Source of the DNA: Acidimicrobiia bacterium
Lineage (GTDB): Bacteria; Acidobacteriota; Vicinamibacteria; Vicinamibacterales; CAVVIG01
DNA: 55,314 nt
NCBI GenBank assembly: GCA_016871175.1
Contig: VFZL01000027.1
Span: 1 to 55,314 of the forward strand
Direction of reading: 5' to 3'
The notes under the pieces were generated by a model. The model saw nothing but the letters and a program-made list of their open reading frames with translations. It had not been told where the DNA came from and searched no databases. The translations under genes were made by a program, and so were the position numbers. Shown here one piece after another: positions 1-55,314 of the stretch (positions within the stretch are counted from its first letter, which is position 1; each line of letters starts with the position of its first letter).

Positions 1-71
1 TGACACCCGTCTCGTATGCGAAACAGTTGACGGCGCAGATGAAAACGGCGACAGTAACCGCCGGGCTCTAA
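1..71 (+). pseudogene. IS3-family transposase OrfB, C-terminal end (cut by window edge)
   Basis: Reading frame from base 3 encodes TPVSYAKQLTAQMKTATVTA and stops with TAA at 69-71. The same peptide ends the larger fragment at the right end of the window, where the preceding residues (REYNEERPKKGLGGLTP) show the rve_3 tail of an IS3-family integrase. The gene is incomplete only because the window begins here; whether the full copy is intact is unknown. Confidence 0.8.
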
Positions 72-105
72 ACGACGTCGCTACTCAAACAGGGGGGGGA
101 CGTCA
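1..105 (+). mobile_element. IS3-family insertion sequence, 3' end (left copy)
   Basis: Positions 1-105 are the reverse complement of the last part of the window (55127 onward), apart from one extra A beside the run of eight G. The segment holds the last codons of a transposase and then a terminus ending GGGGACGTCA; on the other strand it begins TGACGTCC, which fits the TG...CA ends of IS3-family elements. Only the 3' end of the element is inside the window. The boundary at 105 is judged from where the two copies stop matching. No target duplication can be tested. Confidence 0.8.
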
Positions 106-183
106 CTCCACCAGATCCGCACGGACAAGCAGCCCGGCCCACTCGTCGAACGAAGTACCTCAGTCCCGGAGGACGATGAGGGC

Positions 184-1719
184 TTGACCCGGCTGCGCCA
201 TCTCTTCGACGCCGGAGGCTGGGTATTGCTCGAATCTGTCATTGCCGATCTTCCGGCCGATCTTCGCTGGCTCTTCGAGGCCGAGGTGGTCACGCTCGAC
301 CAACTCGCGACGCTCCACGAGGCGACTGGGGCGACTGCGATCGCCGATTTCGCAGACCTCGTGAGGCGCGGTCATCTTCGCTCGCTTCCAGGGTTCACGG
401 AAGAGTCTGAGACCGACGTGGCGCAGGTCCTGCCACGCTTGCGGCAGACGCGCCGACGGATCCCACTTGGTCGCGCAACGGCAATCGCGGAGGCCATTCT
501 GAGTCCGCTACGAGCCCATCCGGCCGTGCGCTGGGCGGAGCCGGCGGGCTCCCTGCGCCGTGCACAAGACACGGTGGGCGATATTGAGATCGTCGCCGCG
601 ACCGACGACCCGGAGGGGGTGTTCTCAGACGTATTGGCGGCCATCGACGTCTCGCGTTTCCTCCATCGCAGCGCGCGCCGGATGTACATCCTCACCGACG
701 GCACACAGGTGGGCATTCGTTGCCCGGCGCCCGCGACGGCGGGGGCTGAGCTCCTCATCCAGACGGGATCACATCGTCACCTCGACGCCCTGCACCGCCG
801 GGCCGTCCGTAGCGGCTGGTCGCTTGGCCCCGCTGGCCTGACCAGACCAGACCGTGACCAACCCGTGGGCGAGAACGAGGAGAAAATCTACGAGGCCCTC
901 GACTTGCAATGGGTGCCGCCAGAAGTTCGAGAGGGAGACGCCGAGGTCCGTGCGGCCGAAACGCGCACATTACCGACGTTACTGTCGCGAGCCGCGATTC
1001 GGGGCGATCTCCACATGCACACGTCGTACTCGGACGGCCGTGATTCGGTCGAGGCCATGGTCCGGACCTGCGTGGCACTTGGCTATGAGTACATGGCCAT
1101 CACGGACCATTCGCCGCGGTCTTCTGCCGCCGCGAGCCTGAGCCTAGAGACGCTTGGGAAGCAGGCAGACGACATCGCGGCCGCACGGGCGCGTTATCCG
1201 CAAATCGCCATCCTCCACGGATGCGAGGTCGACATCTTGCCGGACGGGCGACTCGACTTCGGCGATCGCGTGCTCGAGCGCTTCGACATCGTGTTGGCCT
1301 CGCTCCACGACCGCGCTGGCCACGGGCCGGAGCAACTGATGGACCGCTACCGAGCCGCGATGCGGCATCCTCTGGTGTCGCTCATCACGCACCCGACCAA
1401 CCGCGTCATCCCCGGCCGGCCGGGCTATGAGATCGACTACGACCGCCTGTTCGCGGTAGCCGTCGAAACCAGCACGATGATCGAAATCGACGGCGGGCCC
1501 TCTCATCTCGACCTGGACGGCGTGCTTGCCCGCCGCGCCGTTGCCGCCGGCGCCATGCTGGCGGTTGACAGCGACAGCCATCGCGCCGACATGCTCGACC
1601 GACAGATGGAGTTCGGCGTGAAGACCGCGCGCCGCGGCTGGGTCGAGGCGCGGCACGTGATGAACACGCATTCCTTTGCGGCGATCCGCACGCTCATCGC
1701 CGGGAAGCGCTCGGGTTGA
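184..1719 (+). CDS. polX: PolX-family protein, polymerase site degenerate, PHP domain intact
   Basis: About 511 residues from a TTG start; PolX is usually about 570-580, so the N-terminal 8-kDa/first helix-hairpin-helix part is missing or very divergent, and the IS end lies just upstream (1-105). The frame stays open back to base 58, so the start is uncertain. Order seen: second HhH-like region (residues 30-85), Pol X nucleotidyltransferase core (95-230), PHP phosphoesterase (275-505). The polymerase Asp triad is not conserved: GDIEI has D133 and E135 instead of D-x-D, and QVGIR has Gly177 where QVDLR is usual. The PHP metal ligands look intact: HMHTSYSDG, GCEVDI, HDRAGH, THPTNR and DSDSH. 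In known PolX proteins the PHP domain gives 3'-5' exonuclease or AP-endonuclease activity, so I infer a repair nuclease rather than a polymerase. It overlaps or abuts lolA downstream. Confidence 0.85.
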   Translation: MTRLRHLFDAGGWVLLESVIADLPADLRWLFEAEVVTLDQLATLHEATGATAIADFADLVRRGHLRSLPGFTEESETDVAQVLPRLRQTRRRIPLGRATAIAEAILSPLRAHPAVRWAEPAGSLRRAQDTVGDIEIVAATDDPEGVFSDVLAAIDVSRFLHRSARRMYILTDGTQVGIRCPAPATAGAELLIQTGSHRHLDALHRRAVRSGWSLGPAGLTRPDRDQPVGENEEKIYEALDLQWVPPEVREGDAEVRAAETRTLPTLLSRAAIRGDLHMHTSYSDGRDSVEAMVRTCVALGYEYMAITDHSPRSSAAASLSLETLGKQADDIAAARARYPQIAILHGCEVDILPDGRLDFGDRVLERFDIVLASLHDRAGHGPEQLMDRYRAAMRHPLVSLITHPTNRVIPGRPGYEIDYDRLFAVAVETSTMIEIDGGPSHLDLDGVLARRAVAAGAMLAVDSDSHRADMLDRQMEFGVKTARRGWVEARHVMNTHSFAAIRTLIAGKRSG

Positions 1720-1757
1720 CCCGGCTCCTGTTTCCGCTGGCGTGCTATCGTGGATTC

Positions 1758-2468
1758 GTGACCGGTCACCGACGCATGGCGTACTGCCTCGCGCTCAGCC
1801 TCATCACCGTCATGGGATGGGGTCATGCGCTCGGCGCGCAGTCAGCGGCCGAGCTTGTGGCGGCTCTGCAGAGGAAATATGACGCAGTGCGCGACTTCTC
1901 GGCGGACTTCGAGCACGTGTACACGGGCGGTGTGCTGCGCCGCCAGCTCACCGAACGCGGTCGGCTGCAGGTGAAAAAGCCGGGAAGGATGCGGTGGGAA
2001 TACACGGCACCGGAGAAGAAGACCTTCGTTTCGGACAGCGTGAAGCTCTACGCCTACATCCCCGCTGACAGGCAGGTCATGGTCTCGAGCGTCCCCCAAG
2101 GGGATCAGGCCACGACTCCGGCCCTCTTCCTCGCTGGCCAGGGGAACCTGGCGCGGGACTTCATTACCACCGAGGTCGTGCCACCGAAAGGCGCCTCCGG
2201 CGGCACTCGGGCGCTCAAGCTCGTGCCCAAGACGCCACAAGCGGAGTTCCAGTCGCTAGTGTTGACGGTCGATGCCAAGACGCTCGGGCTCCGAGGGCTC
2301 GAGTCAACGGACGCCCAGAGCAGCACCTCGAGTTTCTTGTTCATAAACCTCAAGGAAAACGTAGGATTGTCCGACAAGGACTTTGTGTTTGCGATACCAC
2401 GCGGGGTTGACGTCATCAGCGAGGGAGGCGCGGCGAACCGCGGAGCAGGCGGTGGCTCCATTCGTTAG
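1758..2468 (+). CDS. lolA: outer-membrane lipoprotein carrier protein LolA
   Basis: LolA shuttles lipoproteins across the periplasm from LolCDE to the outer membrane. The 236-residue product from GTG 1758 has a basic n-region (TGHRR), a hydrophobic core and a cleavage site near ALGA-QSA, then the LolA fold with the typical start LVAALQRKYDAVRDFSADFE and the pattern GRLQVKKPGRMRWEYTAPE. ATG 1776 is an alternative start. The gene follows polX with 38 bases between and its end overlaps the proposed start of the secretin gene by 17 bases, suggesting coupled translation. The product is somewhat longer than E. coli LolA because of a Gly-rich C-terminus. Confidence 0.9.
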   Translation: MTGHRRMAYCLALSLITVMGWGHALGAQSAAELVAALQRKYDAVRDFSADFEHVYTGGVLRRQLTERGRLQVKKPGRMRWEYTAPEKKTFVSDSVKLYAYIPADRQVMVSSVPQGDQATTPALFLAGQGNLARDFITTEVVPPKGASGGTRALKLVPKTPQAEFQSLVLTVDAKTLGLRGLESTDAQSSTSSFLFINLKENVGLSDKDFVFAIPRGVDVISEGGAANRGAGGGSIR

Positions 2469-4371
2469 CACCCACCAGTCCGCCGGGCGCCCCCTGCGGA
2501 CTAGCGTCCACGCCAAGGCGCGACGCATCGTCTTTCTCGCCGCGCTGAGTCTGACGGTCTGGGCGTGCGCGGCCGGCTCGGCCCTGCGTGACGGCCAGCG
2601 GGCCGAACAGGCGCAGGACCACGACCGCGCCGTTGTTGAGTACACAAAGGCCGTCCGACTGAAGCCGAACGACACCAACGCCCGCCTCGCGCTGGAGCGG
2701 GCCAAGCTCCGAGCCTCCGCCGATCACTTTGCTAACGGCCGTCGCCTATCGAGTGTCGGGAAGTACGACGAGGCCCTTGTCGAGTACCAGCTCGCCGCTG
2801 AGCTGAATCCAACCAGCAGCGAAGTCGATGAGGCGCTGCGTACCACCCGTCTACAGTTGCGCACACGCGTGGCCGTCGCCCGCGAAGGCAAGACCGAGCT
2901 CGAGGCGCTCATCGAGCGTGCCCGCGATCTTCCACCGCCTAGTCTCGACCTCCCGTCCGACGTGAAGATGCCCGCGTCGCTCATCTTCCGATCGGCGAGC
3001 AGTCGGGACGTGTTCCTTTCCGTCGCCAAGTTCGCGGAACTGAGTGTGGCCTTCGACTCGACGTTCCGCGAGACGCCGGTCACGATCGACCTACGGAATG
3101 CCACGCTCGAAACGGCGCTGCGATCGCTCTCAAACGCCACGCGCTCGTTCTATCGTGTCACGGGGCCGCGCACGGTGCTCGTCATCCCGGACACGCCGGC
3201 GAAGCGCCGCGAGTACGAAGACGAGGTCGTTCGCACCTTCTACTTGAGCAACGTCGACCTGAAGGAAACGATGGATCTCCTGCGGCTGGTCCTGGACGCA
3301 CGGCGCCTGTCTCCAATCACGGCGACGAACGCGCTCACGGTGAAGGACTCGCCGGAGCGGGTGGCGGCCGCGGCCCGTGTGATCTCGGCTATCGACAAGG
3401 CGCGCCCAGAGGTGATCATCGACGTCGAGCTGCTCGAGGTCGATCGGACGCGACTGTCGGAATGGGGTCTCCAGGTCGCCTCGCCTGGTTCGGACGGCAT
3501 CAGCGGGTCGGCAAACGTCGCATCTGGCAGCAACAGCCCACTGAGCCTTCGATCGCTTCGAAACCTCTCCCAGTCCGACGTCTTGCTCGCGAACCTGCCG
3601 GGCCTGTACTACCGCCTCCTCAAGAGCGATGCCGCCACCCGTACGCTCGCGAACCCGCAACTGCGAACTTCCGAGGGACTGACAGCCCAAGCACGATTTG
3701 GCGAACGCGTGCCCATCCCCGTCACGACTTTTGCACCGATCGCCCAGGGCGGCGTCCCGCAACAGCCACTCACCTCCTTCAACTACGAGAACATCGGCGT
3801 CAACATCGACATCACGCCCCGCACCCACCACAACAACGATGTGTCATTGACCCTCCGGATCGCGGTGCAGAGCATCTCAGGCACCGCGGCCACGGGATTC
3901 GGGAATCTGCCGACGTTCGGGAACCGCGAGATCAACACGGTGATCCGCCTTCGCGACGGCGAGACGAACATGCTCGCGGGCCTGATTCGGGACGACGAAC
4001 GGCGATCGCTGTCGGGCGTGCCCGGACTCAGCGACCTGCCGCTGGTCGGCCGTCTGTTCGCGCACAACCGCACGGAGACGAAGCAGACCGATATCATCCT
4101 GACGCTTACGCCGCATATCATCCGCGTTCTCGACGTCAGCGAATCCGACTTGCGCGCGTTCCGCGTCGGCCGTGACTCGGTATCGCCAATTGCAGAGCTG
4201 CCCGCGATCGAGATCCCTCGTCCGAACGCCCCGCCGTCCGCTGGGGACCCTGGTGCCCCTGCGCCAACGACCCCACCAACCGGCGGCGCTGTGCCCATCC
4301 GTCCGCCCCCGCCGTCGCCAGGGCAGAGCGACCCGCCTCCGCAGACGCCACGGCTCCCGAGCCAGCGCTGA
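2452..4371 (+). CDS. secretin (GspD/PilQ-type) lipoprotein with TPR repeats
   Basis: Secretins form outer-membrane channels for type II secretion or type IV pili. The 639-residue product (GTG 2452) has a lipoprotein-like signal ending TVWAC, two TPR-like units (about residues 45-130: YTKAVRLKPNDTNARLALER and YQLAAELNPTSSEVDEAL), an STN/N0-type domain (about 160-250: PVTIDLRNATLETALRSLS), a secretin N domain, and the secretin core ending GVPGLSDLPLVGRLF then ILTLTPHIIR. A Pro-rich tail follows. No in-frame ATG fits; the open frame extends upstream inside lolA. No GspE, GspC or pilin genes lie nearby, so the partner machine is unknown. The TPR plus secretin layout is like acidobacterial secretins annotated as GspD. 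Confidence 0.85.
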   Translation: MAPFVSTHQSAGRPLRTSVHAKARRIVFLAALSLTVWACAAGSALRDGQRAEQAQDHDRAVVEYTKAVRLKPNDTNARLALERAKLRASADHFANGRRLSSVGKYDEALVEYQLAAELNPTSSEVDEALRTTRLQLRTRVAVAREGKTELEALIERARDLPPPSLDLPSDVKMPASLIFRSASSRDVFLSVAKFAELSVAFDSTFRETPVTIDLRNATLETALRSLSNATRSFYRVTGPRTVLVIPDTPAKRREYEDEVVRTFYLSNVDLKETMDLLRLVLDARRLSPITATNALTVKDSPERVAAAARVISAIDKARPEVIIDVELLEVDRTRLSEWGLQVASPGSDGISGSANVASGSNSPLSLRSLRNLSQSDVLLANLPGLYYRLLKSDAATRTLANPQLRTSEGLTAQARFGERVPIPVTTFAPIAQGGVPQQPLTSFNYENIGVNIDITPRTHHNNDVSLTLRIAVQSISGTAATGFGNLPTFGNREINTVIRLRDGETNMLAGLIRDDERRSLSGVPGLSDLPLVGRLFAHNRTETKQTDIILTLTPHIIRVLDVSESDLRAFRVGRDSVSPIAELPAIEIPRPNAPPSAGDPGAPAPTTPPTGGAVPIRPPPPSPGQSDPPPQTPRLPSQR

Positions 4372-7070: not shown

Positions 7071-10000
7071 TCACGTCCGGACGAGGAAGGCGGAAGCGGG
7101 CGCACCCGTTGCGGCAGACACGGCGGCCGCGTAGGCAGCCACTTGCCTCCGATACTGCGGCTCTGCGCCTGTCAGCTCGCGGTCGGTCTTGTAGTCGACG
7201 ATCACCCAGCGGGCGTCCTCCTCGAACGCGAGATCGACGACACCCTCCATCACGGTCCCGTCGTCCAACCGGAGCGTCACCGGCGTCTCGCGACGGCAGG
7301 CTCCCCGTGCCGCCGCCCGCCTGGCCCGTGCGAGCAACTCGTGTTTCCAGACCCGCGCCACTTTGCGAGCGGCAATCGCCGCGTCGACGGCAGGAAGTCC
7401 GAGCAGGCGAGCTTCGACGTCGGCGATCTGCTGGAGGCGCTCGTCCGACGCCTCGAACGGCGCCTGCGCGAGCACAGCATGAATCAGCGTCCCGAAGGTC
7501 GCGCCGCCCGCGGACCACGAGGCGTCAGCGTCCGGCCCAGCCAGATCACGGACCTCCACGATGCTCACGGGGATGGTCGAGGCACCGGGCGCTTCGATCG
7601 GCCCGCTCTCTCGCTTCGGATCGCTCAGCTCCCGCACCGTCATCACCTTTAGCGAAGGCACCGCCCCTCGCGCCCGCGCGTCCGCACGCGCGAGCCGCCA
7701 TCGATCGTAGTGCGTCCGCCCATCGGCGATCACATGCCTGGGCACATCCTTGACCACGAGATCCGCGCGCCGAACACCGAGCGGTGGTGCAGCCTCCAGC
7801 GCGAGCGCGGTGGGATCCCACCAGACCACCGAGTACCCGCCTTCCCCTGCGAACTGATGCAATCCCGGTGCGACGGTCGCCGGCGACGCCGGCTCATCAC
7901 GCGGCCGGGCGAGCACGGTGTCCTTCGACTTGAATACCGGGCAGGCTGGTGCGCGGGCGGCAGAGCGGCGAGCCGCCACGGGCGGATAGAGCGCACGATT
8001 GAGCGGCGAGACCCAGCCACCCTCGAACGGTTCGTCTCCCACGGCAGGGACCACGAGCAGGTCGCGCGCGCGAGTGGCGGCCACATACGCCAGCCGGACG
8101 CCCTCGGCCTCATCGCGCGCCACCTCCTCCGCTTCGTGATCGTGCAGCTCGTGCGGTGCCCACCCCGCAAGCTTCACAGCGCACAGGCCGCGGTTCGCAT
8201 CCACGTAGCGGGAGGCGTCGGCGCGACTCTGTCGGCACGTCACGTCGGCCAGAATCACCACCGGGAACTCGAGACCCTTCGCCTTGTGGACCGTCATCAA
8301 CCGCACACCGTCGCTCGAGTCCTCAAGAATCGGGGCCTCCGCGGCCTCACGCTCGGTGGCCGACCGCAGCTCCTCGATGAACCCTCGGAACGAAATGCCG
8401 CCTGCCGTTTCGTACTGCCGGGCGAGCTCGGCCACGTGCAGCACATTCGCCAAGGCCTGTTCCCCAGCTGGTCTGAGGATGAATCCAACGTGCGCGCGTG
8501 TCTCGGTCAGGAGCCGACTCACCGTATCCGCCACCGGTCGGTAGTTACGCCGGCGATGGAGGTCCTGGAGCAGACGCAGCGCGTCGGCGACGGACACCAA
8601 GTGCGATGTCTCCTCGGCCGAGAGTGCGAGCTCGTGCCCGGAGCTCCCGCCCAACTCTCTGGGGATTCGGAACGGATGAAACGCTCCAAACCTGGCCTTG
8701 TACTCCAACAGGTGCGCATCTTCGATCGCGAAGAGCGAGCCGCGCAGCGTAGCGAACACCGACAGCTCATCGTCGGGCCACTCAATGGCGGCGAGGGCCG
8801 CTCGAATCACCTCCACCTCTTCACGGTTGTGAAACGCCTTGCCTCCAACGAGCAGGTGTGGGATGCCCCGAGCCTCAATGGCTTCGACGTAGGGCCGCGT
8901 CACGTCTTTGCCAAAGCTGTTCAAGCGTCGGAACAGGATCGCCACGTGTTTCGCCTGCAGCGGAACCCACTGCTCGCCATCGATCCCATTCCGATCACAC
9001 ACCTCCCAACCGTTCTTCGGATCGATGAGCCAGTCTACGAACGCCGCAACGGCGTGTGGAAGAGACCGTTCGACAGCCCACGGTGAGATCCTTCGCCCCG
9101 CACCACGATCCGAGTACGGCCTTGGCACCGGCAGCGCGACAACCGATGGTTGCGTCTTGTGTGCTTGGCGCCCCTCGGAAAGAGCGACGTAGTCCGGTTG
9201 AAGCGCCCGGTCGTCAGCGACCATCTCGCCCCTAAACGCCGCGTTGACGAACCGCTGAATGCCGGGCACGCTCCGGAAGCTCGTCGTCAGTTGGACACGG
9301 CGACCGCCATGTTGCTCGATGTGCCGGCTGACGCGCCAGTACGTCTCCACGTCGGTTCCTCGGAACCGATAGATCGATTGCTTCGGATCGCCGACGATGA
9401 AGAGCTTGCCCGGCTTGGGCTTGGCTTCCCGATAGTCCGAAATCGATTCATCCTCGGCAGCGAGCAGCAGCAGGATCTCGGCCTGCAGCGGATCCGTGTC
9501 CTGGAACTCGTCAACGAAGATGCGCCGGAACTTCCCCTGCAAATGTCGGCGAACGGCGGGCGTGTCGCGAAGGAGGTCTCGCGCACGAGCCAGCAGGTCG
9601 GTGAAGTCGAGCACGCCCGTCGCGAACTTCAGCGTTTCGTAGCGCTCAGTCGCGCTCTTCAGCTCACGCTGGAGCAGCGCCGCGAGGTCTGCATCGGCGG
9701 CCTTCTTGAACTGCTGCAGATCGCTGAAGAGCGCGTCTCTCGTCGAGAGGACTTCCGTCCTGGTCACCTTGGCGCTGTACTTGTACCCGCTGCCCTTCCG
9801 TGTCCGCGAGAAGCCCTTGTCTCGAACGAGGTCCACCAGGCGCGCTTCCCAGCCGTCGATGTCGTGATTGCCGAAGTCCTGCTCCAACTGAATCTGGCCA
9901 CTCAGCCGACGCACGGCGTCCAGGTCCTGGTATAGGTTGTCGCGTGTATTCAAGGGCTGTGCGGAGAGCGCAGCCAGCGCGTGCAGTGCCTCGACCAGGC

Positions 10001-10694
10001 GTCGGACTTCGGTCTCCCGATGGAACGTCGGGATCCGTCGCCACAGCGCCGGGTAGTCTCGCGTCTCGAGCAGCGCACGACCGGCGCTCCGCAGCCGCCC
10101 GATTGGGCCCTCATCGATCGTCCCAGTCGGTCCCAGCGTGCCTCCACCAAAGGCGACTCCCGCCGCGCGGCGCAGGGCGCGACGCACCCCCTCGGGCGGC
10201 TCCCGCAGGGTGTCCTGCAGCCAGGCGCGAAACGCTCGATCGTAGAGGCGCACGGCTTGCGGTTCGGTCAGCACGGCGAAGAGGGGATCCACGCGCGCCT
10301 CGACCGGGCGCTCCCGCAGGAGGTCCGCGCAGAAGCCGTGGATCGTATTGACGTACGCCTCCTCGAGTCTGCCGAGCGCGGCCTCCAGTCGCTGCCGCAC
10401 CTCGTCGTCCGCGGCTGCGGCCCTGCGGAGCTCGAGCGCCTCTCGCATCCGGAGCTTCAGTTCGCCAGCCGCCTTCTCCGTGAACGTCACCGCCACGATC
10501 TCGTCGATCGCCGCGGCGCCGGTCTCGAGCACCCTCAGCATCCGATTCACCAGCTCGGTCGTCTTGCCGGTGCCGGCCGCAGCCTCTACGACCAGCGTCA
10601 CGTCGAGATCGCCCGCGATCGCCTCGCGTGCCGCCTGGTCATCGGGCTTCCGAGCGTCTGCCCCACCGGGTCGGACGATGGGCAACACCGTCAT
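7071..10694 (-). CDS. addA: AddA-like UvrD-type helicase with PD-(D/E)XK nuclease domain
   Basis: The 1207-residue product has the layout of AddA, the ATP-driven subunit of AddAB that resects double-strand ends. Walker A is AAAGTGKTTELVNR (about residues 38-51), motif II is RIFVDEFQDTDPLQAE, motif III region is FIVGDPKQSIYRFRG, and the later motif VMTVHKAKGLEFPVV is present. The C-terminal nuclease shows GVVDLAFEEDARWVIVDYKTD and QVAAYA, the PD-(D/E)XK core. Its ATG overlaps the stop of the AddB-like gene by four bases. The family could also be annotated as RecB-like, but the paired cysteine-cluster nuclease upstream favours AddAB. Confidence 0.9.
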   Translation of the reverse strand: MTVLPIVRPGGADARKPDDQAAREAIAGDLDVTLVVEAAAGTGKTTELVNRMLRVLETGAAAIDEIVAVTFTEKAAGELKLRMREALELRRAAAADDEVRQRLEAALGRLEEAYVNTIHGFCADLLRERPVEARVDPLFAVLTEPQAVRLYDRAFRAWLQDTLREPPEGVRRALRRAAGVAFGGGTLGPTGTIDEGPIGRLRSAGRALLETRDYPALWRRIPTFHRETEVRRLVEALHALAALSAQPLNTRDNLYQDLDAVRRLSGQIQLEQDFGNHDIDGWEARLVDLVRDKGFSRTRKGSGYKYSAKVTRTEVLSTRDALFSDLQQFKKAADADLAALLQRELKSATERYETLKFATGVLDFTDLLARARDLLRDTPAVRRHLQGKFRRIFVDEFQDTDPLQAEILLLLAAEDESISDYREAKPKPGKLFIVGDPKQSIYRFRGTDVETYWRVSRHIEQHGGRRVQLTTSFRSVPGIQRFVNAAFRGEMVADDRALQPDYVALSEGRQAHKTQPSVVALPVPRPYSDRGAGRRISPWAVERSLPHAVAAFVDWLIDPKNGWEVCDRNGIDGEQWVPLQAKHVAILFRRLNSFGKDVTRPYVEAIEARGIPHLLVGGKAFHNREEVEVIRAALAAIEWPDDELSVFATLRGSLFAIEDAHLLEYKARFGAFHPFRIPRELGGSSGHELALSAEETSHLVSVADALRLLQDLHRRRNYRPVADTVSRLLTETRAHVGFILRPAGEQALANVLHVAELARQYETAGGISFRGFIEELRSATEREAAEAPILEDSSDGVRLMTVHKAKGLEFPVVILADVTCRQSRADASRYVDANRGLCAVKLAGWAPHELHDHEAEEVARDEAEGVRLAYVAATRARDLLVVPAVGDEPFEGGWVSPLNRALYPPVAARRSAARAPACPVFKSKDTVLARPRDEPASPATVAPGLHQFAGEGGYSVVWWDPTALALEAAPPLGVRRADLVVKDVPRHVIADGRTHYDRWRLARADARARGAVPSLKVMTVRELSDPKRESGPIEAPGASTIPVSIVEVRDLAGPDADASWSAGGATFGTLIHAVLAQAPFEASDERLQQIADVEARLLGLPAVDAAIAARKVARVWKHELLARARRAAARGACRRETPVTLRLDDGTVMEGVVDLAFEEDARWVIVDYKTDRELTGAEPQYRRQVAAYAAAVSAATGAPASAFLVRT

Positions 10695-13600
10695 CGCATC
10701 GACCTCAGCGTCTCGAGATCAGCCAACCGTTCGGACGCCTTGCGGCCCGCACGCGCCTCCTCGTGCGGTCCACAGACGGGTTTGAAATCGCACCAGGTGC
10801 ACGCGCGCTGGGCGGGCGCCGCGACGAGGAACCCCTGCTCGATCGCGCGATCGACGATCGTCAGGACGTCGAGCCCCTGGCGGCGCGTGTAGTCGTTGAG
10901 GTCGATACTCTTGGTCGCGAAGCCGCCGACTGTGGTGCTGTAGTACAGGCGTCCCGCCACGACCTTCTTCCCAAGTGCCTGCTCGGCCACCATGCTGTAC
11001 AGGACCGGTTGCAGCATGGTCCCACCGCCAACGATCAGGTCCGGCGTGGATCGGTTGCGACCGGTCTTGTGGTCGGTCACACGAAGCACGTCGACCGTCG
11101 CGTGGTGTTCGATTAAATCCACCGATCCTCGCAGGGTGAATCGACCGTCGATACGGACCGGCTCGGTCAAGCTCCGTGGATCGCGGCTCGCATCGCTGAG
11201 GCCAAAGCTCCACTCGAAGTACTCGGGAATCCACTCCTGCTCGTCGGCCATGCGGCGGACCCAGATGGACAAGTCTCGCCGCAGGTCGTCGATCTCGTCG
11301 CGCCACACGCGAGGAATGGCCGGCGCCAGACGTTCCTCGTACTCGGCGGCCACCCGCTCGAGGATCCCCTCCAGCCTGGTGACTGCGTCAGCCACGCGAT
11401 CGGGCGCGATCGGCAGACTTCCGCTGCCGCGCATCTCGCGCTGGAACTCCGTCTGCACGGCGTGGAACAACGAGCCTCGCGTGAGCGGATCGAGTCGCAC
11501 CAGTGGCTCTGGTTCGATCCATGGCTCGAGGCGATGGATCGCCGCGAGGAGGAACTGATACGGGCAGGTCGCAAACCGTTGCAGCGCCGAGAGCGAGTAC
11601 GGCCGGGCGCCGAGCCGCTGCTTCGCGAGGTACGGGGTCAACGCAGGCGAGTCCGACACCAGTCCGTCGCTTTTCGACCAGGCCGGCTTGTCGCGGAGCC
11701 ACCGGCCCGTGATGGAGCGCCTGAGCGAATCGTTGAGATCGAGCATGTAGTGGGCGCGGCCCTTCACCGGCCCTTGATCCCGCGCGTCGAGCAACGGACG
11801 CAGGACGGCAAGGTCGTGCTCGAGATCGTCGACCGCTCGGTCCGGATCCTCGGGCGCCGGCCACCCGAGACTGGCCCCCGATTCCTTCGCAGCGTGTTGG
11901 GCCAGCACGCGGTGGTCCGGCACTCGCCCGGTGATCGCCCGCACGACGTCGAGCGCGTAGAACGACGGCACGCGCGCGCGCCCTTCGGCGTTGCTGTCCA
12001 GCCGGGGATAGGACAGGTAGAGCCGCTCGCCCGCCGCGCCCACCGCGATCCGAAGGAGCAACCGCTCAGCTGCCGCCCTTTCATCCTGCTGGAACAGACC
12101 CAACGAGCCGTCACCGCGTCCTGCGGCATCGAGCGTTGCCCGACTTTCATCCAGCAACAGGGGATCCTCTCGCGGTCGCTGCGGCATGATGCGCTCGGCC
12201 AGTCCCGGCACGAACACGACGCGAAACGTCCGCCCGCGCGCCTGCTGTGGCGTCCCGACGAACACGCGACCGTAACGACGTGGGGGCGGATCCCACTCCA
12301 GCGTCGTCAGTCGGTCATGGAGCACGCGCGACGCTTCTTCGAGCGACACCTCGGTAATGGTCGCCAGCGGACGGAGCTCGGCGAGCAGACGCTGCACGCG
12401 CTCGGGTCGCTTGAGCGAGCAGGCCGCGAGGCGCGTGAATCGCTCGAGCCACGCACTCCACGATGCGGTGTCTGGCCACTCGGCCAACAGATCGATCACC
12501 GGTAGCGCAAACGACGTCAGATGCGCCAGGTTCGTCAGGTCGCGCCGGAGGTGGCGCGCGCGGCCGGCCTCCGGATCGTCGCGGCACGCCTCCACGAGCT
12601 GGGCCTCGAACTCGGCCCGTAGCCCCTTCAGCCGCCGACGCCACCGCGCTGAGCCGTCGGCGCGATCGCGACCGCCAATCACGGCGGACTCGACCACCAG
12701 CTCCTCCCACTTCCATGGCGCACGAAGGGTCCCGAAGACGACGGCGTCCTCGTCGTGGTCCGCCCCGGGCTCTCCTGCAGCCGGCAGCAGCGCATCCGCC
12801 GCCTCCGACACGGCCGCGTCGCCAACATCGGTCGGTGGCAGCTCTCCGAAGACCTCGTCGCGAGCCGGCACGGGATCTGCCAGCGCGGCGTCGTTGGCGG
12901 CCTGCTCACCGACCCGCGGCACCTGACCGAGTGACAGGTATTCGTCGAATCGGCGGGCGGACAAGCCCTCGAGCGCGCATGCGAGCAGCGCCAGAAACGC
13001 GCGGCCCGATGGGTCGGGGCGACGCGTGCCTCGGTCGAAGTACGCCGGGACGTCCGCGCGTGCGCAGGCGTGCTCCAGCAGTCCCAGGTACTGCTGTGGC
13101 GTGCGCAGCAGGACAGCCATGTCGTCGAACCGCGTGCCCCGCTCGGCTTCGTCGAGCATCCGCCGAGTGATTTCGAGGACCTCGCGCCCCTCGCCTGGCG
13201 CAGAAAACACGCGCACATCGCCCGTCGGCGTGCGCACCTCGGGACGGTCAGCGGTGAAGACGTACCGGCGCAAGTGCCACAGGTCGGACACCTGCGGCGC
13301 TGGATCGACCAGCGTGACGTGACGGCTACCATCTGGGTCGATCGCGGCTCGCGCACGCTCGTCGCCCGTCGGGAGCGTGACGAGGGCCTCTGGCGCGCGG
13401 TCCAGAAGAGCCCGCGCAAACGCAGCCTCGGCGTTCGAGTCGAGGGGGATATCGACCAGAGCTACCGGCAAGCCAATCCAGCACACCGGCGATCCGTTCG
13501 GGGCGCACGCCCGCGCCGCAAGCGTGAACAGGCGAGCCCGGTCGACCACTCCCGCCATGGCAAGCTGTTGGTCGATGCGCTCCAGGAGGCGGCCCAGATC

Positions 13601-14038
13601 CGCTGCGGCCGAGGAGCCGTCGGACAGCGTGCCGGCGTCCACGCCCGCCAAACGCAACTCGTGCAAGGTGCGCGCGAGAGCCAGGGGGAACCCCGGCAGC
13701 CGCGCGACGGGAGCGAAGTACGAGAGCTCGTCGGCACCCAGGGCATCGAACGTCGCCCGCGTCGAGACCGCCTGAACACCCGCCGTCGTACCGAACAGGA
13801 GCGGAGACCCACCGCTCACCATCGACGCGAGGCGCGCTGCCAACTCGGTGAAGCTGAAACGTGTCAGGCCGAACGTCGCGCCAAGGCGACTGGCGACAAC
13901 GCGAGCGAGATCGTCCGCGGCGCCGCGGGTGGCCGCGACGATCAGTCCCTCCGACCCGGGCTGACGGGCACTGAGGAACGAGACAACGGCGTCGAGGCGG
14001 GCCGCTGCTGACGTGGACGTGACCACACGCTGACTCAT
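10691..14038 (-). CDS. addB: AddB-like PD-(D/E)XK nuclease subunit
   Basis: The 1115-residue product from ATG 14038 is the expected AddB partner. The N-terminal half resembles a UvrD-like fold (LIVAATRGAADDLAR) without a classic Walker A, as in inactivated AddB helicase domains. The C-terminal nuclease has the pattern VTDHKTGR. Four cysteines for the AddB iron-sulfur staple are visible: one in QRFATCPYQFL and three in ACTWCDFKPVCG. The stop overlaps the addA start by four bases. It is the first gene of a five-gene minus-strand run reaching to 4415. Symbol by similarity of architecture. Confidence 0.85.
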   Translation of the reverse strand: MSQRVVTSTSAAARLDAVVSFLSARQPGSEGLIVAATRGAADDLARVVASRLGATFGLTRFSFTELAARLASMVSGGSPLLFGTTAGVQAVSTRATFDALGADELSYFAPVARLPGFPLALARTLHELRLAGVDAGTLSDGSSAAADLGRLLERIDQQLAMAGVVDRARLFTLAARACAPNGSPVCWIGLPVALVDIPLDSNAEAAFARALLDRAPEALVTLPTGDERARAAIDPDGSRHVTLVDPAPQVSDLWHLRRYVFTADRPEVRTPTGDVRVFSAPGEGREVLEITRRMLDEAERGTRFDDMAVLLRTPQQYLGLLEHACARADVPAYFDRGTRRPDPSGRAFLALLACALEGLSARRFDEYLSLGQVPRVGEQAANDAALADPVPARDEVFGELPPTDVGDAAVSEAADALLPAAGEPGADHDEDAVVFGTLRAPWKWEELVVESAVIGGRDRADGSARWRRRLKGLRAEFEAQLVEACRDDPEAGRARHLRRDLTNLAHLTSFALPVIDLLAEWPDTASWSAWLERFTRLAACSLKRPERVQRLLAELRPLATITEVSLEEASRVLHDRLTTLEWDPPPRRYGRVFVGTPQQARGRTFRVVFVPGLAERIMPQRPREDPLLLDESRATLDAAGRGDGSLGLFQQDERAAAERLLLRIAVGAAGERLYLSYPRLDSNAEGRARVPSFYALDVVRAITGRVPDHRVLAQHAAKESGASLGWPAPEDPDRAVDDLEHDLAVLRPLLDARDQGPVKGRAHYMLDLNDSLRRSITGRWLRDKPAWSKSDGLVSDSPALTPYLAKQRLGARPYSLSALQRFATCPYQFLLAAIHRLEPWIEPEPLVRLDPLTRGSLFHAVQTEFQREMRGSGSLPIAPDRVADAVTRLEGILERVAAEYEERLAPAIPRVWRDEIDDLRRDLSIWVRRMADEQEWIPEYFEWSFGLSDASRDPRSLTEPVRIDGRFTLRGSVDLIEHHATVDVLRVTDHKTGRNRSTPDLIVGGGTMLQPVLYSMVAEQALGKKVVAGRLYYSTTVGGFATKSIDLNDYTRRQGLDVLTIVDRAIEQGFLVAAPAQRACTWCDFKPVCGPHEEARAGRKASERLADLETLRSMR

Positions 14039-14217
14039 GACACCTCCGGTGGCCGTACCGGGACATCGGGACATCGCCGCGCTCGCGGCGATTGGTCCGT
14101 CATGCGGCGCGGGATGATGACTCCGAGCCCGTTCGAGCGCATAACGGTGGCGCGCAGAGGCAGCCCGCGAAGAAACCAAGCGGGCGTCGGACCCACGCGC
14201 GGCGACTGAGCCGTGTT

Positions 14218-14232
14218 CGGGGCGGCGCCCCG
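14218..14232. repeat. GC-rich palindrome, family member A
   Basis: CGGGGCGGCGCCCCG is a near-perfect palindrome flanked by TT on the left and ACCAGG on the right. It closely resembles the elements at 30532, 32064 and 38680. It lies in the 266-base gap between addB and the receptor fragment, where no gene was recognised. It may act as a REP-like element or a hairpin in transcripts. Confidence 0.6.
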
Positions 14233-14304
14233 ACCAGGCAAGAGCGTAGCACGAGTGTCGCTGCCGCGCCGGCGCGTTCGGACCGCCGGCGGTGCCCCAC
14301 CTTG

Positions 14305-14800
14305 CTAGCGCTGAAACCGGAACTGAATGCGGAACTGTCGATATTCGGAGTTGTAGAACGTCCCGAACAGTGGCGAGGTGACGTTCGCCTGCACATCCGA
14401 TGGGAGCCAGGCATGGATTGCGTTGTCCACGCGAATGCCGACCCAAGGCCGAAGGGTTCGAATCCGCACGCGATGCTCGATGCCGAGCTCCGTGCGAACG
14501 TACTGGGGAAATCGACGCGCCTGACGTGGACCGACGAAGTCGAGCATCTCGTTCACTGTCGAGTACGGTAGTCCCGTCCGCCAGTCCACGACTGCGACGA
14601 GCAGCCACGTCGGGGTCGGCAGCACGCGGCTCCGTACGAGCAACCGATGTGGCACATCCGCGCGCGAGGGCGCGTATGCGTTCTCTGCCACGATCGGCCA
14701 CCGCACGGCGTCGAAATAGTGCGTGAACGCGTTGGTCGAGGCACGGGACCGCGACCGCACGTAGGTCACGTTCACATCAGCGCGGGTGCCTTTCGTGTAC
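14305..14800 (-). pseudogene. TonB-dependent receptor-like, C-terminal barrel remnant
   Basis: The last about 160 residues read as the C-terminal strands of a large TonB-type outer-membrane receptor of the acidobacterial style: ADVNVTYVRSRSRAST, AYAPSRADVPHRLLVRSRV, DWRTGLPYSTVNE, RPWVGIRVDNAIHAWLPSDV, and a final YNSEYRQFRIQFRFQR. Barrel homology fades near 14800, where third-position GC bias switches to a plus-strand frame. Full receptors of this type are around 1000 residues, so the plug and most of the barrel are missing. The frame continues open to 15267 but that part does not look like receptor. Confidence 0.7.
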
Positions 14801-55126: not shown

Positions 55127-55314
55127 TGACGTCCCCCCCCGTTTGAGTAGCGACGTCGTTTAGAGCCCGGCGGTTACTGTCGCCGTTTTCATCTGCGCCG
55201 TCAACTGTTTCGCATACGAGACGGGTGTCAGCCCGCCCAGTCCCTTCTTCGGCCGTTCTTCGTTGTACTCCCGACGCCAGGCCTCGATCACGACCTGGGC
55301 ATGCGCCAGACTCG
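55127..55314 (-). mobile_element. IS3-family insertion sequence, 3' end (right copy)
   Basis: The element begins TGACGTCCCC at 55127 (its right end, reading inward) and runs out of the window. The part to about 55231 is the reverse complement of 1-105 with one base difference at the C/G run. It is inserted upstream of the cold-shock gene. Opposite orientation to the left copy means both 3' ends face the 55-kb interior. Confidence 0.85.
55160..55314 (-). pseudogene. IS3-family transposase OrfB, C-terminal part (cut by window edge)
   Basis: The last about 50 codons read AHAQVVIEAWRREYNEERPK and GLGGLTPVSYAKQLTAQ, ending in TAA at 55162-55160. The YNEERP...LGGLTP pattern is the C-terminal integrase tail of IS3-family OrfB. 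It is incomplete because the window ends, not necessarily because the gene is broken. Confidence 0.85.

Follow-up and report, generated by a model that had tools for sequence, protein, structure and literature searches.

An old PolX paralogue of one bacterial order, predicted to be polymerase-dead, keeps its PHP metal site and probably handles its substrate differently

The window analyzed here is a stretch of 55,314 nucleotides that begins at base 1 of contig C27 of the genome of a soil acidobacterium (4.44 Mb in 85 contigs, estimated to be 96.8% complete). Its left end carries the remains of a PolX-type gene that abuts an insertion sequence (IS), followed by two genes for predicted envelope proteins. 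The features to which we refer throughout are as follows, with residues of the window protein numbered from the TTG codon at 184 and the Thermus thermophilus PolX chain serving as the reference in our alignment.

1 to 105, forward strand: right end of a probable IS3-like element, comprising the tail of a transposase ORF (stop codon at 69-71) and terminal sequence ending in ACGTCA; identified from repeat copies with different flanks
106 to 183, forward strand: what is left of the gene's N-terminal region ahead of the first usable start (26 codons); identified by translation and a match to a sister protein
184 to 1719, forward strand: PolX paralogue, predicted to be polymerase-dead, 511 residues from TTG184; identified by NF006375, Pfam and an orthologue
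580 to 588, forward strand: palm motif GDIEI with Asp133 and Glu135, aligned with T. thermophilus D198 and D200
712 to 714, forward strand: Gly177 of QVGIR, aligned with D243, the last Asp of the T. thermophilus triad
772 to 783, forward strand: aligned dNTP-binding positions, His197 and Leu200
1012 to 1581, forward strand: PHP domain, with nine metal-ligand codons at 1012, 1018, 1033, 1108, 1225, 1306, 1390, 1573 and 1579
1399 to 1401, forward strand: Asn406, which replaces the Gly of HPTGR (Asn in 31/31 paralogue rows, Gly in 125/131 canonical rows)
1489 to 1506, forward strand: Asp436 and His441, at the positions of Bacillus subtilis PolX N498 and R503 (29/30 and 30/30 readable rows)
1716 to 2468, forward strand: next gene, LolA-like lipoprotein carrier (PF03548, E 1.5e-23)
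2383 to 4371, forward strand: secretin-domain protein with TPRs (PF00263, E 1.5e-37)
55,127 to 55,314, reverse strand: further copy of the IS end seen at 1 to 105, located at the far end of C27; identified by repeat match and rve_3

The sequence of positions 1 to 105 recurs at the right end of C27 and on C32 and C60, in each case ending in ACGTCA and bordered by different flanks. The ORF tail in the right-end copy of the window matches rve_3 (E 2.7e-10), which points to an IS3-like element; as the contig starts where the window starts, the element is visible here by its end alone, and C19, C55 and C57 each begin with a related opposite end that carries an ORF start. Because the IS ends are 96 to 99% alike, the insertion into the PolX paralogue is probably recent. 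The missing 5' portion of the gene is absent beside the three opposite ends, a search of the genome using part of the sister protein's N-terminus returns the window as its sole convincing match, and the rhodanese gene that lies upstream in the sister has just a weak match elsewhere in this genome (C11, E 1.6e-4).

The reading frame of the gene runs from stop to stop over positions 58 to 1719, its PolX portion (106-1719) begins directly after the IS end at 105, and the first ATG, GTG or TTG is TTG184, from which 511 codons follow without a stop. Positions 103-225 of C27 match residues 32-69 of the sister N-terminus piece (50% identity, E 3.2e-5), and comparison with the sister protein indicates that the first ~30 to 45 residues have been replaced by the IS end. 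An earlier note on this DNA had proposed truncation at an IS junction, which the repeated IS end bears out; its estimate of 60 to 80 missing residues is too high, the figure being ~30 to 45, with 26 of the gene's own codons still preceding TTG184. Such a truncation is seen in this genome only, and a protein made here from TTG184 would be an accident of the insertion. Fourteen of the 18 other family members span 571 to 588 residues from stop to stop.

The window protein scores below the cut-off of the NCBIfam PolX model NF006375 (E 5e-100; 335.7 versus 426 bits), gives Pfam matches to the PHP and thumb domains, and matches the palm at just E 0.038. An orthologue from the same genus is 72% identical to it. 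Its own genome encodes one other full-length PolX, which has a canonical triad and is 36% identical to it (C1:167578-169035), and one further PHP protein (C7). Among 60 genomes, this one included, 33 carry the paralogue and 43 a canonical-type PolX, with both in 30, the paralogue alone in three, the canonical type alone in 13 and neither in 14; this tally is classed by search identities, with triads checked for the aligned rows only. The two genes share a contig in 15 of the 33 genomes. A wider search of 106 genomes of the order, which we take to be Vicinamibacterales, finds the paralogue in 41, two of them with fragments. A pattern-based contig scan, considering the best 80 of 135 confirmed loci, recovers at least seven clear members at 46 to 72% identity, all titled Acidobacteria and two of them "gp6," and the next match among the loci kept is a Chloroflexi PolX with a canonical triad. 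As far as sampled, the paralogue is confined to this one order.

For comparison of individual positions we aligned 167 rows: 31 paralogues (from 29 of the 33 genomes plus two scan contigs, four fragmentary genomes being left out), 131 canonical PolXs and five noncanonical comparison rows, namely four plasmid-borne alphaproteobacterial sequences and the partial Deinococcus radiodurans sequence 2w9m. A held-out set consists of 17 of the 19 not-yet-aligned genomes from the 106-genome search, without the fragmentary G048 and G053. In a FastTree phylogeny of all 167 rows the 31 paralogue rows form one clade with a support of 1.0; in a more careful tree of 59 rows, 14 paralogues and 11 canonical PolXs from the order fall into two separate clades, each with 100/100 support. 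A joint clade with the canonical PolX of the order is rejected (p 0.0002), which rules out a recent duplicate of the local canonical gene. Some members of the window's family also carry a third PolX lineage with a canonical triad (G026 C110, G003 C56, G014 C130 and G002 C35), which clusters (100/100) with a sequence belonging to a different family in the phylum and was possibly transferred.

The polymerase site of the window protein lacks two of the three catalytic aspartates, as the earlier note had claimed: Asp133, Glu135 and Gly177 stand at the positions of D198, D200 and D243. The alignment with related PolXs establishes that this alteration is common to relatives. An intact Asp triad is found in 0/31 paralogue rows (the window included) and in 131/131 canonical rows; 16 of the 31 paralogues have the same D-E-G arrangement as the window, and the alteration is uneven, with D200 kept in 2/31 and D243 in 3/31. 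All 16 readable held-out sequences have an altered triad as well. At the dNTP-binding positions K263 and S266 of T. thermophilus the window has His197 and Leu200, the canonical rows having Lys in 125/131 and Asn in 126/131; the dNTP-site Asn is missing from all 31 paralogue rows, its place being taken by Val (16), Leu (7), Phe (7) or Thr (1). A scan of alignment columns finds no clade-wide substitute acid adjoining the lost third Asp; an acid at position 238 occurs in 16 of 19 sequences of the family versus 9% of the canonical rows. The palm spans 80 to 84 residues in the 31 rows, compared with 77 to 92 (median 83) in canonical PolXs and 57 to 70 in the five comparison rows, and the fingers span 62 residues in the window, 61 to 63 in 27/31 rows and 45 to 51 in the other four. 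Given these substitutions, the paralogue would not be expected to carry out the usual polymerase chemistry.

We considered whether the window gene is a lone damaged copy that has been decaying since the IS arrived, a scenario that would fit the IS end within the gene and the fact that the genome's own canonical PolX, Ku and LigD-like genes also carry unusual changes. It is almost certainly wrong, and for the polymerase site it is refuted by the relatives, which are free of the IS, share the polymerase-site changes and are under purifying selection (see below); the 511 codons that remain in the window are also free of stops. Because IS-free relatives share the loss, the loss of the polymerase site predates the IS. 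The earlier note had suggested that, in that event, the gene would represent a PolX subfamily that keeps only the PHP nuclease; the IS-free relatives support this, as they have altered triads together with all nine PHP ligands (31/31), and the 17 held-out sequences agree. Relatives with a full triad and a full N-terminus, named there as evidence to the contrary, do not occur within the clade, and such proteins, present in many of the same genomes, belong to a different clade.

Several other genes of this genome merit separate mention. Its only Ku match (L203, C44:20644-21144) holds two in-frame stops, and among the Ku matches of the other 43 Ku-bearing genomes a stop is seen only in a fragment from G025. 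Of three LigD polymerase-domain matches (C3:137080-137805, C40:5653-6386 and C40:11453-12211), one holds an in-frame stop, one is split over two frames and one is open; a fifth such match, on C58, is partial. The canonical PolX of the genome (L002) carries G187E and T260M (T. thermophilus numbering), each unique among the 131 canonical rows, which are otherwise invariant at these positions. The broken Ku and LigD-like genes may, together with the broken PolX paralogue, mean that selection on end joining has relaxed in this lineage. Within the window, a probable AddAB-like pair (7071-14701) consists of a UvrD helicase with a PD-(D/E)XK domain and an adjoining second PD-(D/E)XK protein.

The DNA-binding part of the N-terminal half has also changed across the clade. 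Fourteen family members have an N-terminal region homologous to the canonical PolX N-terminus (HHalign probability 97 to 98%), and homology over the 8-kDa/thumb region is retained in family f1. In family f2, all ten paralogues examined, from 11 such genomes, start near the palm and do not have the 8-kDa/thumb region; nine are 428 to 466 residues long and one, which has no early start codon, is 507. Lax searches upstream of these f2 genes with two N-terminal queries gave nothing convincing, the best matches (E 0.015 and 0.12) being canonical PolX genes. Since the f2 proteins start near the palm, loss of the 8-kDa and thumb domains has occurred naturally within the clade. The GxG signature of the first helix-hairpin-helix motif (HhH1) is found in none of 25 readable paralogue rows, versus 118/131 canonical and 4/4 noncanonical comparison rows, and that of the second (HhH2) in none of 24, versus 114/131 and 1/5, indicating at the sequence level that both DNA-binding motifs were lost in the clade. 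As a separate observation, eight genomes (G091, G083, G130, G137, G140, G187, G231 and G241) give separate matches to the first ~120 to 160 positions of the PolX model (8-kDa/HhH) in short open frames of these Acidobacteriota; two of the matches hold a stop.

The PHP domain is a different matter at its metal site. All nine ligands (HHDHEHHDH) are present in the window, and the full set is found in 31/31 aligned and 17/17 held-out paralogues (48/48 in all); among canonical PolXs the set is complete in 121/131, the other ten having Gln in place of the first His. This pattern weighs heavily against a fully inert pseudoenzyme kept for its structure or for binding a partner, a reading that would accommodate the loss of the polymerase site and HhH motifs but that we regard as very unlikely, since the metal ligands are universal and the PHP domain is on average the most conserved part of the protein. 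A partition of domains between a PHP-less polymerase and this PHP gene, considered for G271 and G276, was also rejected: the G271 gene is cut short at the end of its contig, and G276 is a single case of internal deletion or assembly join. The G276 gene in question (L207, C5:22111-23163) is a canonical PolX with its PHP part broken in this way.

Part of the rim of the PHP active site has changed across the clade. In B. subtilis PolX, mutants of F440, R469, R474, N498, R503 and K545 are reported in a 2019 study (PMC6616362) to have all nuclease activities severely affected; we anchored this numbering on the Arg of HPTGR, taken as R469 in a close Bacillus sequence, whereupon all six residue types match those named in that report. 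The R503 position is His in 30/30 readable paralogue rows, whereas every canonical (131/131) and comparison (5/5) row has Arg. The N498 position is Asp in 29/30 readable paralogue rows and Asn in 127/131 canonical and 5/5 comparison rows; the change is a tolerated one, as Asp is also the residue of T. thermophilus PolX at this point. At F440, the paralogue rows have Ala in 22/31 and Phe in 1/31, the comparison rows have Phe in 5/5, and Leu or Met occurs in 19/131 canonical rows. A scan for clade-diagnostic columns adds Gly471, replaced by Asn in 31/31, and Gly383, which is lost; both glycines are present in 5/5 comparison rows. The held-out sequences have His506, Asp501 and Asn471 in 17/17 each, giving pooled counts of 47/47 readable rows for Arg to His, 46/47 for Asn to Asp and 48/48 for Gly to Asn. 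The statement in the earlier note that all PHP motifs are intact therefore stands for the nine metal ligands and falls for the residues around them, which have been replaced clade-wide. Because the new rim residues are fixed throughout the clade, they suggest a changed function and not decay. R469 is kept in 29/31 paralogue rows and R474 in 21/31, and K545 is represented by Arg in 30/31, so that this evidence does not point to a loss of DNA binding.

Among eight paralogues of the family, the mean identity of the PHP domain is 0.718, versus 0.731 for canonical PolX, and the corresponding values are 0.560 versus 0.670 for the palm, 0.559 versus 0.747 for the fingers, and 0.606 versus 0.766 for the N-terminus and thumb. 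Individual pairs depart from this average: in L006/L009 the N-terminal part lies slightly above the PHP domain (0.901 versus 0.881), and in L016/L020 PHP identity is the lowest (0.709), with unreadable residues in that part of L020. dN is smaller than dS in every domain in 7/7 pairs, four of them paralogue pairs, with many dS values near or above 1 and thus saturated. These comparisons indicate that the whole protein is under purifying selection and that, on average, the PHP domain is its most conserved part. An AlphaFold model of residues 2-511 (mean pLDDT 90.3, pTM 0.84) is PolX-like, and its best matches among solved structures are, in order, T. thermophilus PolX, D. radiodurans PolX and YcdX.

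Taken together, we favor, at a probability of about 0.72, an old PolX paralogue that is polymerase-dead, in which the PHP phosphoesterase/nuclease is the working half and substrate handling has probably changed. The polymerase half would have become a noncatalytic shell around a working PHP enzyme, presumably a Mn-dependent phosphoesterase or nuclease that hydrolyzes phosphate ends without any step of synthesis. Retention of a nuclease is predicted from the conserved metal site, in a domain in which part of the DNA-binding rim has changed. Because residues on the approach to the active site have been replaced clade-wide by equally invariant ones, the enzyme probably acts on a substrate, or on a form of DNA end, other than that used by classic PolX; ordinary DNA exonuclease action is possible, because the basic residues are retained. 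A bolder version, which we hold tentatively and on the doubtful side, is that a polymerase was turned into a new-substrate phosphoesterase in one bacterial order, its polymerase, dNTP and hairpin sites dismantled and its rim rebuilt on invariant His, Asp and Asn, such that it would no longer be a DNA exonuclease.

Other PHP proteins act as phosphatases or as oligonucleotide or RNA phosphoesterases, and a PHP domain that has left DNA altogether for such a role, with the polymerase shell as a scaffold, is an appreciable minority possibility here. The disappearance of both HhH motifs, the absence of the 8-kDa/thumb region from family f2, and the loss of the Arg503 and Phe440 equivalents alongside invariant new rim residues all speak for it, as does the envelope nature of the nearest neighbors with Pfam matches, LolA and the secretin. 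Against this, the equivalents of R469, R474 and K545 are largely retained, the palm and thumb are under purifying selection, and the genomic context points to no substrate. LolA is the immediate downstream neighbor of the paralogue in G011, G026 and G039, in G015 and G001 a stretch of sequence or another gene separates the two, no LolA match was found near the paralogue in G029, and a homologue of the secretin comes next in all six genomes. Beyond the secretin lie cell-wall genes, recognized by eye, with Pfam calls made only for LolA, the secretin and rhodanese. A canonical PolX lies ~10 to 16 kb downstream of the paralogue in all of these but G001; in the window, LolA and the secretin follow, gene order is disrupted beyond them, and the canonical PolX lies on a different contig.

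The role ascribed to polymerase-dead PolXs is that of DNA exonucleases in break repair, and the paralogue could be an ordinary member of this kind in another phylum, a Deinococcus-like 3'-5' exonuclease acting in double-strand break repair. Consistent with this, Ku is more common in paralogue-bearing genomes (29/33 versus 15/27, Fisher p 0.008, kinship ignored); the link is equally strong for canonical PolX (36/43 versus 8/17, p 0.008, kinship likewise ignored), and we therefore reject a paralogue-specific association with Ku. The published marks of noncanonical PolX described by Prostova and co-workers (PMC9226535, 2022) are present, namely an altered triad, a mostly hydrophobic residue at the dNTP Asn and intact PHP ligands. 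However, one clade uniting the paralogue with the four noncanonical comparison rows used, one of them partial and with long branches, is rejected in AU tests (p 0.008; p 0.006 with PHP columns alone), and the comparison rows keep the rim Arg, Asn, Gly and Phe in 5/5 and HhH1 in 4/4 readable cases, which the clade does not. We consider this explanation less likely than not, and retain that of a polymerase-dead paralogue with probably altered substrate handling. The invariant changes at the PHP site translate the latter into a concrete, testable prediction of substrate change, and the clade offers a natural experiment on why bacteria drop the polymerase half of PolX and keep the PHP half, in a phylum for which two noncanonical sequences are mentioned in the main text of PMC9226535.

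In that paper, both acidobacterial sequences belong to the main noncanonical cluster, and independent origins are allowed for; the present clade may already be sampled among them, and no title or abstract on it appears among the best-ranked literature matches listed. As characterized in PMC9226535, polymerase-dead noncanonical PolX has substituted triad and dNTP residues, an intact PHP metal site and conserved 8-kDa and thumb domains, with palm deletions in many but not all members and fingers deletions that are characteristic but not universal; such proteins are reported to have no polymerase activity and a strong Mn2+-dependent 3'-5' exonuclease. The paralogue resembles these proteins in its triad, dNTP site and PHP ligands. 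It differs from the comparison rows in forming a separate clade, in its normal palm length, in the loss of HhH1 and in the replaced rim residues, and from the published description in that the fingers show no deletion in 27/31 rows and the 8-kDa/thumb part is not conserved (HhH GxG in 0/25 and 0/24; region absent from 10/10 f2 proteins); loss of HhH2 is not unique to the clade, the motif being kept in just 1/5 comparison rows. Relative to canonical PolX (T. thermophilus 3au2/3auo), the fold (TMq 0.78) and domain order are the same, and the catalytic triad, the dNTP Asn and the HhH motifs are gone, with 36% identity to the copy in its own genome. The actinobacterial PolX-like proteins described in PMC12926913, where the name "PolX2" denotes another group, likewise keep PHP and have lost polymerase function, but there the polymerase region is wholly absent, whereas here a palm is still present; four actinobacterial rows, taken to belong to this group, retain the rim Arg and Asn, unlike the clade. 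A rim signature common to those proteins or to the genome's own C7 PHP protein was rejected, as His and Asn are not shared, C7 having the Asp in common. YcdX-type stand-alone PHP proteins (1m65) share the PHP fold (TMt 0.81), YcdX being a lone domain at 23% identity. The kind of protein is already known, as noncanonical PolX, and the clade described here looks like a separate case of it.
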